Below are positions 16,218 to 60,100 of a stretch of DNA of 64,000 nucleotides, piece after piece. The translations under genes and the position numbers were made by a program. The notes under the pieces were generated by a model. That model saw only the letters and a program-made list of their open reading frames with translations, searched no databases and was not told the origin of the DNA. Source of the DNA: Albula goreensis. Taxonomy: Eukaryota; Chordata; Actinopteri; Albuliformes; Albulidae. Every line of letters begins with the position of its first letter. Position 1 is the first letter of the stretch. Where the stretch lies: NCBI GenBank assembly GCA_022829145.1, contig CM040753.1:4300149-4364148 (forward strand). Direction: 5' to 3'.

Positions 16218-19200
16218 CTAAAACTCTGTGTACTCATCTTTCAGGTTTTCATTCAGACTCAAGGCTAATTTTTCAGTGTCTTCCTGAAGTCTCCACTCTC
16301 GTCCTTCTTTAACAATTGATACTAAAGTAGAGAGAGTGCTGTTTGGGTCCAGTAACTTAACAAGGGGAACATTGATTCCCCTGTCTTGGAAGATGAGGTT
16401 CTGTAGTGTCATGGACACCATTGAGTCGACACCCATGGCAGAAAGTGCCGTGCCTTCATTCAGCTCATCGATGTCCACATTGCATGTCTCACTGAGCAAA
16501 GTCCTGACATATTCCCCAGGACAGGCAGGGGAAGTTGCTGGACGTACCCTGGTTTCTGTTACTCCTGCGTTTTTGAGTTCCTCATCCACCAACGCTGAAA
16601 GACGTACTTTCAGGGAGGCATTTTGAGAAAGCACGTGATTCCTAAGGTTTTTGAAATTGAACTTGCACACAACCTGTTGGGCATTGTTTTGCAACAGGCA
16701 GAGCGCCAGGCCTTGGTGAAATTGTGCCACCTCCATAACCATCGTTCCCTTAGCCTCCAAAAATTTCTGCAAAGGATCTTTGTTCAGCAGGAGGCCAAGG
16801 TTGAATGCTCCCCAGTTGATGGACTGCGCAGCCAGGCCAAGCCTCCTCCGATAGTGGCAAAACATGTCTAGGAAAGAATTAGCTGCAGCATAGTTTGTTT
16901 GAGAGGCATTACCAATGAAGGAGGAGATGGAAGAGTAGCACACAAAGTAGTCAAGTTTGCAATGCATGGTTGCATCATGGAGATTCAGTGCACCATTAAC
17001 CTTTGGTCTGAACACTTTTTCAAAGTGTGATTTGTCAAGGTTTTCAAGTAGACCATCGTGCACGATGGCAGCACTATGGAATACTCCTCTGATTGGACAG
17101 GAGGGAAACCTCTGTCCAATCAAAACAACTGCCTTTGCTACCTGTTCCGGAATGGAGACATCACACTGTATGCTGATGACTGAAACGCCATGCTGATTCT
17201 GTAGAACAGCTATGTCATGATGCAGTTGAGAAGAGGGGGCACTTCTGGAGAGAATGACAATGAACCCTCCTCCTCTTTGAGCAACGAACTTCACTGTTTC
17301 AAACCCCAGCCCAGAAAGACCCCCCGTCACTATGTAAATAGAGTTCTTCCGGAACAGTTGCTTTGGTTTCCCCTGTAGTGGCAGGTCAGACACCACATCT
17401 TCAATGTTACTATCCAACACAACCACAGATGTTGTCCCTGAGCTGAAGTAAGATTTTGCATCCTGAACAGGCAAGCAGTCGGTACTACCTAATGTCACTC
17501 TTTGGAAGGTGGTGCTTTTCAGAACTACAGGAATCTCAGTCAATCGCAATGATTTCAGCCAGTTATAGATCAATTTTTTTTGCCTCTTTAGATATGCTCT
17601 TTGGAACATGCTGGCCACCTGAAGGATGTGAATGCAAATGTTTTCACTATCAGCTGCAGATACGTTCCACGAATGTATAGCTGACATTTCATTATCACAA
17701 ACCAAAACAATATCCCTGGTGGTGGAGACGCCGCAAGCACTAGCAACCAACGATGAATCAAAAGGAGGCAATAAGACAAATGTGTCACATTGGTTCACAT
17801 TCTGTAGCAGTCCGCTAAACTGTGTCCCTGCAATGGCATTCCATCCAGACTGAGTTGCAGTAAGCATTAGTACTTGGACCAGGTTAGAATCAGGCTCAAG
17901 AGAGATAATTCCCATCTTTCTCTGTTGTCTTGCTTTGGGCAACAACTGGTGCAAAATTTCCCATGCTACGACAAAGTAGGACACACATGGAATGTCCTTG
18001 AGAAATGGAAGCCTCTTTGTCCTGTAGCACGCAGCTTCAGGAATCACAATCTTTGAGGATGCAGCGATGGGGTAACAAGAAACAATGTGATCCCCCACTT
18101 TCAGCTTTCCCACTTCCTTCCCTACAGCTGTGACGGTGCCACTGAAGTCAAGAGCCAGAAGCTTGTGGTTCTGGGATGTGTGTTTGTTCCAGTACATGGT
18201 CTTACCAAAGGTAAAATCAGAGACACTAACGGGGAAGTAATCTGAGGTATGAACACAGATTTTATGCACTTTAACCTCAACACTTTGCTTCTGGATTTGG
18301 TCTATAGCCTCACTACAGGGAACTGCAGATAACTGTGTCATTCTGTAAGGGTCTGCGGTCTGCAGGGTGACATTTTCAGACCATAAAGTCTGAGCTGTGC
18401 TTTCGGGACTATCAATGGACTTAACCTGAGTGCGAGTGATGGCGGTTGAATAAATCTGACCCTTGCTTATTATCACCTCTGGATACTTGCCGCCTGGATA
18501 CGAACATATGACATGAGCCAGCAGCTGAATGTTCTCACTGGTCACAGAATCAAGATCGATTAGCTGGAATGAAAATCCTGAAATTTCAGCTGCGCAGGCC
18601 CGTGTCATTCCAGAAATGACAAAACCTGGACTGATACGATCTACTGTCCTCTCTGCTGATCTGTAGGTTAAGACTCTGATGGTGTGAGTGTATTCACTAG
18701 CCTTCAGTGCCAGAACAACATGACGATAAAGCTCACAGAAGCTGAGCAGGTGCTCAAGGATCATATTTGTTTTTAGGTGACTGAGGTTTTGAAGACCCCA
18801 CATGAACAACACCTCGTCAAAATCCCTGCCACTGTCTTGAGCGTTTAACTCAGACAGTAAATCTGTAACTTTTTGGTCGGACTTTCCAGATTCCTTGAAC
18901 CAGAGGAAAGTTGAACTTGAGTCGAGATACCCCCGTAGTGATTTAGCCACTCCCAACTGATCAGCAAAGACTAGGGCTTTTGGTTTTTGGCAAAAGCTGG
19001 CATCCTCGGATGTAGCATTTTGCTCATTATGAAAGAACAACTCTTTAGCAACGCAAGCATCCTCTCCCAGCAACATGATCTTCACATGTCTCAGCTCCAC
19101 CAAAATGCGACCCTGTTTGTCAGTAAAACAACCACATACCTCAAAACCATCCGGCGTCTCCTTGGTCATTCTCAGATAGACGACCATTTCATTCCGCAGA

Positions 19201-22200
19201 GGCTGTGATACCGTGATGCAGCCTATGGCAGAGGGGAACCCAGGCCTGGATGTGAATCCATTCATGGCTACAATGGCGGCCATCTGCAGAAAATGATCCA
19301 GCACTACTGGGTGAATGCAGTAGTCTTGCAGCTGCATCACTGTTTCATCTGGAACCCTGAGGATTGACACTGCCTCCTTGTATTCCTCTCCATAGTGCAC
19401 ATCACCTAGATGTCTGAAGACTGAACCGTACTGAAAACCTGCCAGACGGAGAGCCGCATAGGCCTCTTCTGTTGTCACGATCGACCGGCACCTTTTGAAG
19501 ACCACGTCTAGAGAGATGTTCTGCTCATCAGGAGCTATGGGTTCATTCCTCCATTCAATGGTGCCTGAAGCATACGTCGCCGACTGAGAATGCATTTTGA
19601 ATTTTGCAGTGTCCTCAAACAGTTCAACCTTTACTTTCATGTCAGCGGAGGTCTGGCTGAGTATAAATGGCTTTTGGAAACTTACACTGAGCTGCAGTGA
19701 GCTGAGTGACACCTTTGACTTCATGCTGGCCATGAAGGAGGCCAAAGCTAATTCAACATACATGGCACCAGGGACAAGGGGAACACCATTGTTTTTGTGT
19801 TGAGAAATATACTGAGTTGCATGTGATGAAAGATTACAGCCAAACTCTGTGCTGTGTTGTTTTGTTGGTCTAATAATTGGGTGGTGGCTGTAAGAGGTTA
19901 CTTCATTGCCACGCCTTACTGCTTCAAAGTTCACCTCTTTCTTTATGGAATCAAACTGATACTTTGGGAATGGTGTTGGTGGTGCCTCGTGCCCTCTGTA
20001 AAAATTTTCCCAGTTAACCTGCATCCCCAACTCAAACAGTTTGGACATGGCTGTGACTAGTGTCACATGATCTTTACCTGGCTGCACGGAGGAGAACACC
20101 GTGATGTCATTTCCCAGTGTCTCCATGATGTTCCTCTGAAGGGCCCTTCTTGGGCCTATCTCTACAAAGACTACGTTTTCTTTGCCTTTGGCTGCTGAGT
20201 TCAAGGCTTGTTCAAAGGCAACAGGCTCCCGGACATTTCTGGCCCAGTACTTCCCTTTGCTAAAATCCCCTTGAGAAAAAGCCTGCCCTGTTACAGTTGA
20301 AAACAACTCTGCTTCCATTAGATTCTCTTGCAAGAGTCCTATACTGTCCTCTATTTGGGTCAGGATGGGATCCATCATATGGCTATGGTAAGCAGTAGAG
20401 ACATCTAAGATGTGGAGGAACAGGTTCTTGTTGTTGAATGAGGTCTTCAGTTTCTGATGAAGGCTATCTACAGCATCTGCATTGCCTGACAAGGTACAGG
20501 ACTGTGGGCTGTTGAAGGCAGCTAAGCAGACCTTCCCTGAGTATGCAGGGAGAAACTTCTGGATTTCTGACACTGCTATGTTACTGACAACAAGCATCTT
20601 CCCTCCTGTGACCTTGCTCTGTAAAGTGCTGCGGAAATAGATCACCTTTACTGCATCCTCAAGAGACAGCAGACCAGAGCAATGGGCAGCTGCAACCTCA
20701 CCTACAGAGTGGCCAAGAATAGCATCAGGTCTGACACCCCAGTGCTTTAGAAGGGTGGCAATGGCTACCTGGATAGCAAAGAGAAGGGGCTGGACAACAT
20801 CTGGTTTTGAATGATCATCATTGTCATAACCATTTTCCAGCTTCTGCAAAATGCTCATGTTTTTGTATTTTTGGAAAAGGTCCTCAACCTCTTTCACCTT
20901 TTCTCTGAAAATAGGCTCTTCTTTCAGCAGCTGCTTGCACATGCCTCTGTAAGTCACCCCATTCCCACAACAAACAAATACCAATCTTGTGTCTGACTTT
21001 GATGTTGTAATGTTTTCGTTCTGTGCAGAGTTCAGTTGCACTCCTAAATCACTCAGAGAAGATACCAGGAACACTTTTCTGTATTTGTGTTTTAAGTGGC
21101 TTCTCCTGCATGCTGATGTATACACCAGAGCATTTAGGTCCACATTGCTGTCTGTTCCTATTGCTTGAGCAGTGTCTTTGAATGTCATTTTCAGAGATGT
21201 TACAGAAGCTGCAGAGAGTACAAATAATGTAGATGATCTTTCATGAAATGATTCAGTGAAATATGAATGAATGTACTCTCTGACAATAGCATGTGCATTA
21301 GTCCCCCCAAACCCAAAGTTATTGATACCTGCAGCCCTCCCTATTGGGCCAGTCTTTTCCCACTTCTCTACTGTGGTGGGAATTCTCAGATTCAAGGCTT
21401 TGGCATCAATGCTGGCACCGTCCTCAGAGTAGAAGAGTGAGGGAACGATGGTTTCATGGTGCATCATCAGAAGCACCTTGATGAGTCCCGCCACTCCAGC
21501 TGCAGACTCGGTGTGTCCGATGTTACCTTTCACAGAGCCGATGCAGAGCGCTTCTGATCCTGGAGGTCTGGCTTTGGCAATGACTCTGGAGATGCTGCCT
21601 GCTTCTGTGGGATCCCCCACTGGGGTTCCAGTCCCATGTGCCTCTATGTACTGGACTTGTGATGGATGAACCTCCAAGTAAATTCTGTGGAGCAGCTCCT
21701 CCTGCTGGTCCATGGATGGCCTTGTGATGGGAGTGGCAAAGCGGCCATCTTGATTGACGACAGTTCTGCTTATGACGCCCCATATATGGTCAAAGTCCTT
21801 TACAGCCTGTGAACATATGAAAAGTTACATCGGCGACGTTGACATATAAGTCATATATAGCAAAGAGGGGCACTCTGATTCTGAAAATCAGTCTGTTTAT
21901 TTGCAAATCCTAAAACTGGCTGGTTTCCTGGATTTAATTATTTAGCTTCACGTCATGGCTATGCAATCTATGAAATGCCTAAGACCACTTTTTGTGTTCT
22001 TTGTCAAATTCAGATTGATCTCACTCAGGTAAGTCTCAATCCGATTAATTAGCACTTCTGCTTTCTACAAAATTATGCAAACATTTTCTGCAAAATTATG
22101 TATACATATTGTTTTTATAAATGAATGAGAACTGAATACATACATTAAAGCTCTTGAAATAGTATTGAGAAGGGCAGCAAGAATGGTCCCAGGTATCAAA

Positions 22201-25219: not shown

Positions 25220-25440
25220 GGTTCTTTCATCTGATAATCGATCCCTACAGTTAGGAGGCGAGGTAACGGGGGGGGGCGTCCAGGAACAGTCGGATTTCTA
25301 TATCATTTCCTGTGTGTAAGACAATGTCTTTGCTTATTTAAGGGTAACCTGTGCTCTGAGTGGTTTTGCTCATAATGACAAAGAGCCTTTATTTTGGCAA
25401 TCTGTAACAGAAGCCTGTAATTGGAGGGTTAAGTGTGGAG

Positions 25441-57158: not shown

Positions 57159-60100
57159 TCAGTCTATTTTCCTGAAAAGAAAAACAATATGTGATATGAT
57201 TAGCGTTTAGCAGATATTTGTTACTCAGGGATAAAGTGGCATTCCCAGCTCACTGTGATTAAGCCAATCCAGGTTTTTTTAGGTGAATTCGTGCACCTTA
57301 CGGTAAGTTCATACTGTCTGTGGTTCTTATTCAGAAACTGCATCAGCAGTGACTTGACTCAAAAATACCCTGATCGGCTGAAACCACTATTACGCAGTGG
57401 GAATGGTATTTGCATCACTGAGTTTATATTGCACATGCAATTAAGTAATTTGCAGTAAAAATACGTAATAATTCACATCAAAGAAGATTTGAATCTGTGT
57501 TGATCTCAGTTCTAGAAGGGATGCAAAACGAGGTAAATTTGTACAAAACCGTCAAGAAAGTACTAGTGATGTGAATAGAAGTGTTTTTTTGAGGATGTGC
57601 ACTAAGGGCACTGGAGTCATGCTGTGTATGTATTGTGTGCATAACAATAGACTAATTCAGCAGTGACAGAATTACATGCAAAACGCATGCATGTGGTACA
57701 TAAGGTCTGGATTCAGGCCTTAGCTTCAAGAGAAGGCTACCTATAGCCCCAGGTGCCAATACCTTCTCCTCCTCTGTAGGTAGGCGCGAATCAACCACTG
57801 TGCTACGAAGGGCCAGACCACAGCGAAGGCCACGGTGGCAGGGGAGACATCAAAAGGCCACCAAGATGGCTTCTGAAAGAGCAACATAGTCATGTGAGCC
57901 ACCCAAGATGGCTTCTGCAAGAACCATACAGTAATGTGAGCCACCCAAGATGGCTTCTGCAAGAACCATACAGTACAACACTTGCTTTAAGCAAATAAGC
58001 TACTCAGCAGTCCCAGAATGAGAAACTATGAAAATTCTGAAACATTAAAGGTGAGATATTCTGCACTACAGTACCATGATTTAGAAAGGTAATTTTAGAT
58101 TAAAATTAAAAGCAAAAAAACTTTCATCAGGTTCAGGGTTTTTTTTTTTTTTTGCTTTACATGTCCACAGGAACAGCCAATGCAAACTGGCCTTTGGCTA
58201 AACGGTGTAAAATGCAGAGCGTGTCATGTCGCAGATGTTTGCAGTTGCACACTGTCCCAGATTGGAAAGGATTCGATAAAAAAAAAAAAAAAAAAAAACA
58301 TGCATACGGCTCTTACATCAGTGGCTGTGCCCGGTATCTGTTAACAGATACAAAGGGTATTTGCTTTCTGTTAATGACTGAACTGAACTAAAAACCAAAA
58401 CATCTGACAGCGATGGAGGGAAAGCTTCAAAAGTTTCTCCCCTACAGGATACATACCTTATTTGCCTTATATGCAGGGGGAGATGGGTAATTTGGTTGTA
58501 GAGTCAATGACCTAGCCTAGAGTGCAAAAAACAAACCACAAAATTCAAATGAGAACATTCCAGTAAAGCAATGATTATAATGTTCTACTGTATATGGAAT
58601 TGGGAGACTTACACAGAAACACAATGCCTCAGGAGTTCTGGGAATATATTCTACCTCAGGTGGAAAATGTTAAACATACAGTAATGCAAGTGCCTCAGAA
58701 TCGTAAATAACACGATAATTATACTGAAATACACACATACAGTGGTCCTCTAATTGCTCTTCTGAGAAAGGGCAAGGCAGGGTGAAGATGAAGCTGGTAA
58801 GGAAGAGACAAAGTCTGGTCAGTAGGACCACAGCACTTGGACCTATCTGATCTACCTGGCTGAAAACACTCACCTGTGAGTCGGTCAGGGCCTCCAGAGT
58901 CTACCTAGCCTACCTGGCTATAGAAACTCACCTGTGAGGCAGTCAGAGCCGACAGTCTACCTGGCCTACCTGGCTGTAGGCACTCACCTATGAGGTGGTC
59001 AGAGCCTACAGAGTCTACCTGGCCTACCTGGCTGTAGAAACTCACCTGTGAGGCGGTCAGAGCCTACAGAGTCTACCTGGCCTACCTGGCTGTAGAAACT
59101 CACCTGTGAGGCGGTCAGGGCCTCCAGGGTCTGCAGCCTCTGCAGCACACTCTGCATGTCCTCCTGCAGCCGGGCCAGCGCCGTGACGATCTGCTCATTC
59201 AAGTTGCCACTGGCGCCACCCTCTGACCCCCAGCGCTCCCCATCTCCTGCCCCACCCAGCAGCACCCCCTGGGGCCCCGCTCCTGGAACCAGGGACCTGG
59301 ATCCTGGACACAGAGGGGTGAGGGATGAGAACAACTTTCATGGCCTCGATATTCCTCAAAGTAAAGGAAATCCAATCAAAAACATGCCTTTTCTATTCCA
59401 ATACTCAGGTGGTCAAAAAAGAACATACCATTCTGTGAAGGACTGGACTGTAGTATACTGGTAGTGTAGTATAACTGTCAGAGAGCTGGGCTTGTAACTA
59501 AGCAGTTGCAGATTTTATTTTTCCTCCCACTGAGGACATCACCATTATACCTTTGGGAGGCATAAACTGCTTATGTAAATATTTAGTTGTACAAAAGGAT
59601 AGCGAGTAAAAATGTAAGCTGTGCAATTCGTTCTGGATAAAAGCATTCATTAAATCTCTACAATGTAGCTATGACTTAACTCCTCTGTTATTTTATTTTC
59701 TGTAGAGGTCCTTCGGTGAGGACATGGTCCAACTTCCCTCAAAACTACCGACAGTGCTCCACTGATCTCCTGCCATTCAGCCCAGACACAAAAATCTCCT
59801 TTGTGTGAAATGTTGACTGAATGGTCAGTCTGGAGGTTTTATATTAAAAAAAGAACAGGGCAGGCTGTGCTCAGTGCAAACTCCGTGCTGAGATAGAAAA
59901 TGCCAGCACAGGGGCAAAGAGCTCCTGGCACCGAAGACCTAGAGACAGTCACAAAAAATGCAGGACTACACTATAAAAGGAGTAGCGAGTGGCCATGCTT
60001 TAAGAGTAAAGAGCTGAGGTATGTCAACAAGGCAATATAATACTTAAACCAAAGGGCTTAAGAAGGGGGCTTTCATACCGATCCCCCTTGCACTTTCCGC

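Follow-up and report, generated by a model that had tools for sequence, protein, structure and literature searches.

A stretch of 64,000 nucleotides from Albula goreensis (contig CM040753.1; the window, at its whole length) carries on its minus strand the acbd5 exons from mid-gene to the tail, the 3′ part of the gene, and raises the question of what it means for a gene to have the splice acceptor of its last main exon three times in a row. The initial annotation of this DNA had regarded the three acceptors as equally usable, and as a source of tail-anchor isoforms with a longer linker before the membrane helix. Are the copies sites selected for such isoforms, or are they products of mutation beside which the original sites are still the ones mainly used?

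Repeat arrays at the two ends of an acbd5 intron

The gene had been named acbd5 at the outset, and rightly so: the joined translations of three exons just beyond the window match the acyl-CoA-binding domain (PF00887, E = 1.3e-30). Along the translation, SDSEVYCDSVDQFGTEE, LNEQIVTALARLQEDMQSVLQRL and an end in ...QRRRR follow one another in that order; these may be the FFAT-like motif, the coiled coil and a C-terminal anchor whose tail is basic. The tail exon alone matched no Pfam family, the sole Pfam match of the coiled coil with the tail was PspB, under its cut-off, and a search of the PDB gave nothing below E = 0.7. The candidate terminal exon (Table 1) was chosen by eye among many for its likeness to KLN, the end of human ACBD5; one of six terminal-exon candidates of the paralog described below gives KMN. 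Elsewhere around the gene, a 31-bp minisatellite (L004:2664-3293) precedes the acbd5 start codon by about 8.7 kb, two-copy arrays at 25439 and 38476 of the window were read and no exon was tied to either, and a stop-to-stop open frame of 1868 codons (16221-21824) resembles, by eye, a large animal polyketide synthase.

Table 1 Features of acbd5 in the window, and boundary arrays at recognisable exons elsewhere in the assembly
Feature	Position	Strand	Copies or length	Details
Upstream coiled-coil exon	59104..59303	-		ends ...LEALTASQ, phase 0; paralog exon stops at the same codon
Donor array, same acbd5 intron	58852..59132	-	4.9 copies (five)	spacing 56-58 bp; TRF
acbd5 intron, first donor to inner acceptor	57873..59103	-	1231 nt	paralog intron 1312 nt
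Acceptor array	57857..57975	-	2.9 copies of 42-bp unit	each unit: intronic tract, CAG, the 12 initial bases of the exon, then filler containing CTCAC
Possible further in-frame extension (were the outer acceptor used)	57915..57956	-		KPSWVAHITVWFLQ
Possible in-frame extension (were the middle acceptor used)	57873..57914	-		KPSWVAHMTMLLFQ
Tail-anchor exon from inner acceptor	57763..57872	-	110 nt	translation KPSWWPFDVSPATVAFAVVWPFVAQWLIRAYLQRRR(R)
Candidate terminal exon, probable coding part	57159..57171	-		QRRRRKID* (R-K-I-D-stop from 57171)
PLAT donor array	C1:533596		11 copies	E = 0.002, 19.3 bits, below Pfam cut-off 23
Harmonin donor array	C1:2778903		8 copies	PDB E = 1.3e-4
Fucokinase donor array	C1:6160534		8 copies	PDB E = 5.3e-8
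HNF4 acceptor array	C12:6334287	-	nine CAGACT sites	about 220 bases, real acceptor included, mostly 24-28 bases apart

The acceptor array consists of units that each hold an acceptor and the first 12 bases of the exon, as had been noticed at first; TRF reports it at 57857-57975 with a period of 42, 2.9 copies and 91% matches. Its three acceptors, each CAG followed by AAGCCATCTTGG, lie 42 bases apart with first exon bases at 57956 (outer), 57914 (middle) and 57872 (inner), in agreement with the boundaries originally placed after 57957, 57915 and 57873. The outer unit repeats the middle one base for base (42 of 42). Compared around the acceptor, the middle copy agrees with the inner one at 13 of 19 intronic positions and at all 12 exonic ones. 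Beyond these 12 copied exon bases, the duplicates read GTGGCTCACAT and the real exon TGGCCTTTTG, which may mean that 16 exon bases were copied and one G inserted. An exact match to 30 bases of the unit is found at two places in the 932-Mb assembly, both in this array, and the 84-base double unit matches the assembly once, here. A tandem pair of identical 42-base units does not arise by chance.

Joined to the upstream exon (end at 59104, phase 0), all three acceptors leave an open frame, with 28, 14 or 0 extra residues, so that the claimed preservation of frame holds. Such frame keeping is weak evidence of function, however, because a period has a one-in-three chance of being divisible by three, and because 49% of shuffled 42-mers are open and the actual unit is open in all three frames. 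Another weak hint, here of constraint, comes from a comparison of the middle copy with the inner one, in which 0 of 12 exon bases changed, versus 6 of 19 intron bases (P = 0.037, although it was the match that delimited the compared stretch).

A second array, absent from the initial finding, occupies the opposite end of this intron. Each of its units carries the end of the upstream exon and a donor: the five copies have their last exon bases at 59104, 59046, 58988, 58932 and 58874, with GTGAGT next in every case. Of the 15 possible donor–acceptor pairs, the three that use the first donor are open, and the remaining 12 all hit a stop. In the 94 kb scanned, a period of 20 or more together with 2.5 or more copies is seen in four arrays (counting overlapping rows as one and excluding a 27-bp row with 55% matches), two of which are the acceptor and donor arrays of acbd5.

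Probable ancestral sites and predicted use of the copies

Searched at the protein level, the assembly (932 Mb in 208 contigs) yielded eight matches: two each to this acbd5, to a second acbd5 copy on C3 and to a related gene on C8 that we infer to be acbd4, and two that were weak. Two acbd5 copies, together with the gene content, would suit a teleost fish. Read by eye, the C3 paralog and the C8 gene each have a single donor and a single acceptor at the codons where the acbd5 of the window has its first donor and its inner acceptor, and TRF found no array at their matching junctions. The tail exons of the two acbd5 copies are identical at 88 of 110 bases, and the C3 exon begins at the same codon. 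Since neither relative has an array, or more than one acceptor at that codon, the inner acceptor (57872) would most simply be ancestral, as would the first donor (59104), and the simplest reading is that duplications in this acbd5 copy proceeded outward from the two; loss of the arrays in the C3 and C8 relatives is a possible alternative history. A processed copy recording past splicing was also sought among the eight matches, none of which spans both exons at high identity.

These features point to what has been called in amphioxus a 'mirage', a minisatellite produced by local tandem duplication of a short stretch across an exon–intron boundary. Tandem units span the boundary at both ends of the intron; the authentic boundary, set by the paralog at 57872 and 59104, sits at the edge of each cluster beside the real exon; and the splice signals are kept throughout (CAG in three of three acceptors, GTGAGT in five of five donors). 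The acbd5 intron would then have gained a mirage at either end, most simply once the two acbd5 copies had split, with the original acceptor and the original donor staying the main sites. The first donor would win by its position, the other donors giving stops; the inner acceptor probably leads, the middle one, having a complete set of signals, might see low to moderate use, and the outer one is probably used least. Given the 42-base period, use of an extra acceptor would do the frame no harm and would insert 14 or 28 residues ahead of the membrane anchor; isoforms of this kind are possible. We give this whole account (an origin by duplication, original sites still the main ones and the inner acceptor in the lead) a probability of about 70%. 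The arrays are most likely mutational products that probably left normal acbd5 splicing in place, which would make them mainly a curiosity of DNA mutation.

How far the three acceptors differ bears on this account. Scored with a matrix of vertebrate frequencies, the outer, middle and inner acceptors reach 6.7, 7.7 and 8.4, respectively (eight other acbd5 acceptors range from 1.0 to 12.5), scores that are equalled or exceeded by 5.4%, 3.2% and 2.1% of the AGs on the minus strand of 84 kb; the matrix discriminates poorly, because three decoy AGs within the intron (58793, 58761 and 58516) outscore the inner acceptor. A branch-point-like CTCAC stands at −26 to −22 (A at −23), with no AG between, before the middle and inner acceptors only, whereas the outer acceptor has only CTTAT, with its A at −40 and two AGs between. 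Judged by scores and branch-point-like sites together, the copies do not appear equally usable, although the predicted difference in signals is modest. In the available text of a large splicing-library study (PMC6783452), the optimal branch point is likewise CTCAC, at about the same place as in the acbd5 acceptors, but adding it generally had no effect on the choice between tandem acceptors, which weakens the argument from CTCAC. Because its score is close to that of the inner acceptor, the middle acceptor could even be a major site.

RNA structure was considered as a selector among the acceptors and set aside. Averaged over 16 contexts, the probability of being unpaired (outer, middle and inner, respectively) was 0.49, 0.58 and 0.49 for the tract, 0.25, 0.04 and 0.14 for the YAG and 0.31, 0.58 and 0.38 for the branch region. 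Of the three YAGs, the middle one is the least exposed, and neither of the other regions has a clear winner. The acceptor array folds slightly better than its shuffles (z = −1.70); the donor array folds no better than its own (z = −0.42).

A narrower reading, that the inner acceptor alone is ever used and the two extra copies are silent intron sequence, we consider tentative and distinctly less probable than the mirage account. Its ancestral place and its top score among the three would suit exclusive use, as would the undisturbed splicing reported for the amphioxus arrays in the consulted portion of PMC3087553. The middle acceptor, however, shares the CTCAC site and comes close in score, and the library assay, as far as its available text goes, found the first of two consensus donors to be mostly used but no order preference between two consensus acceptors (PMC6783452), a pattern that agrees with a lead for the first donor and offers the inner acceptor no such advantage.

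That the extra acceptors are functional alternative sites, with isoforms of 14 or 28 added residues selected for their effect on membrane targeting or tether length, appears very unlikely. The frame is kept and open, the signals are good at the middle as well as the inner acceptor, and the exon part of the units is unchanged, all of which would favour selection; yet all five codons that differ between the two extra blocks are residue-changing, the unit is open in every frame, the array is missing from two relatives, and the identity of the outer and middle units suggests that the last duplication was young or that the units were homogenised. Longer linkers as the main reading were rejected on the one-in-three chance of frame keeping and on the unit being open in three frames. 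The proposal that the residues would lengthen the linker is incomplete in another respect: residues would indeed be added, but each 14-residue block comprises KPSW from the exon copy, VAH from the filler and ITVWFLQ or MTMLLFQ from the translated intron tract, so that half of it would place hydrophobic residues near the anchor. An insert acting as a second membrane segment was likewise discarded, its best 19-residue hydropathy being 0.87, against 1.53 in the anchor, and no second anchor is predicted. In human ACBD5, about 17 residues separate the coiled coil from the SWWPF motif, which would mean that length is tolerated there. Because targeting of ACBD5 in mammalian cells depends on anchor hydrophobicity and tail charge, at least in the part of PMC5450235 that we consulted, an effect of the extra residues on targeting is as thinkable as a longer linker, and this sensitivity would also speak for functional isoforms.

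Array copies added by mis-assembly are the least probable explanation, with hardly any weight in our view. One amphioxus mirage was aberrantly assembled in a genome draft, according to the consulted portion of PMC3087553, and the identical outer and middle units might be such an artefact. The present assembly, however, is of chromosome scale (208 contigs; C13 measures 36.0 Mb), the middle unit departs from the inner one at 6 of 19 intronic bases, and the five donor units vary among themselves, apart from agreements between neighbouring copies.

Similar arrays elsewhere in the genome

Arrays resembling those of acbd5 were looked for by the donor word CAGGTRAGT, three times in tandem with gaps of 25-55, which matched 793 times, compared with 172 times for the reversed pattern (overlaps included); single donor words numbered 22,649, against 15,718 reversed. 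The acbd5 donor array itself, whose third copy reads TAG, falls outside this triple pattern. Assessed by eye on C1 and the first 10.8 Mb of C2, donor arrays numbered 14, compared with 3 for the reversed word (two of these 3 being shared), which, given the single-word counts, corresponds to P = 0.039, or to P = 0.011 without the shared ones; and, within the first 100 listed words of either kind, more than one copy per 100 bases occurred in 7 of the 77 donor clusters and in 1 of the 99 control clusters (Fisher P = 0.022), all of these enrichment tests being post hoc and against one control word.

Three of the 14 donor arrays begin within two codons of the end of known-exon homology, in PLAT, harmonin and fucokinase (Table 1); of the other 11, five were searched in Pfam, with no match, and six were read by eye. 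The three alone are not proof of a preference for genes, because true splice sites may account for about 31% of donor words, the share by which these exceed the reversed word. Among the extra donors, 3 of 10 in PLAT, 2 of 7 in harmonin and 1 of 7 in fucokinase preserve the frame, about as chance gives. A short candidate exon with its donor (VQFEQVSCESAQ) was also seen twice, 56 bases apart, at C1:1699736.

For acceptors, a pattern built after the acbd5 array showed no genome-wide enrichment (11 matches, forming 7 arrays, against 8 matches for the reversed control). One of the six besides acbd5 lies at a recognisable exon, that of the HNF4 DNA-binding domain (PDB E = 4.8e-25; PF00105, E = 3.4e-17), and the other five were read by eye. 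Of the longer HNF4 forms tested, two of three have an open frame, which we count against reading the arrays as mutational products.

A broader picture would make these arrays part of a class of boundary minisatellites spread across the genome of this vertebrate, arising at donor words beyond what the number of such words accounts for, in which a period divisible by three (as in acbd5) turns variation in repeat number into polymorphism of exon length and gives individuals different tail-anchor isoforms of the peroxisome–ER tether; we regard it as rather unlikely. A vertebrate gene with arrays at both intron ends, single-copy relatives in its own genome and further genes of similar kind would be well suited to testing how the splicing machinery selects one of several near-identical sites, and how repeat turnover changes exon length and introns.

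Comparison with known systems

Tandem arrays bearing on alternatively spliced introns of human genes are reportedly the subject of a 2007 study by Zhuo and colleagues, to go by its title. As described in the available text on tandem 3′ splice sites of the NAGNAG type (PMC2279118, PMC2423196), acceptors of one exon compete there, as they might in acbd5, and the outcome can be in frame; the acbd5 acceptors differ in lying 42 bases apart and in having been made by duplication of an acceptor with the start of its exon, not by a nearby second AG. The Rogers model of intron gain in Drosophila, in the consulted part of PMC2891723, also invokes a tandem duplication that copies splice signals. There, a duplication of coding sequence with AG/GT sites yields a new intron, whereas in acbd5 the ends of an existing intron were multiplied, and no new intron was seen at the acbd5 arrays.

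The closest counterparts are the amphioxus mirages, tandem duplications of exon–intron boundaries resembling minisatellites, described in Adh3 and the globins BflGb6 and BflGb9 (PMC3087553, in the portion available). Judging by sequence, the acbd5 arrays appear to belong to this kind, for which the original remark that no description exists does not hold; among the matches listed, that paper alone concerns minisatellites spanning such boundaries, and vertebrate reports may exist. According to the same portion, the BflGb6 array lies on the acceptor side, with six and three units, 81-100% identical, in two haplotypes, the BflGb9 array lies at the 3′ boundary of exon 2, Adh3 units measure 10-72 bp, and regular splicing is undisturbed, as indicated by the Adh3 data and by RT-PCR of the globins. 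Variation in copy number and undisturbed splicing are thus features of the amphioxus arrays, the acbd5 arrays being known here from the sequence of one assembly. As far as can be compared with that account, acbd5 shares with amphioxus tandem units composed of an exon piece, a splice signal and an intron piece, and differs in being a vertebrate gene, in bearing arrays at both ends of one intron and in having a 42-bp acceptor unit that keeps the reading frame.
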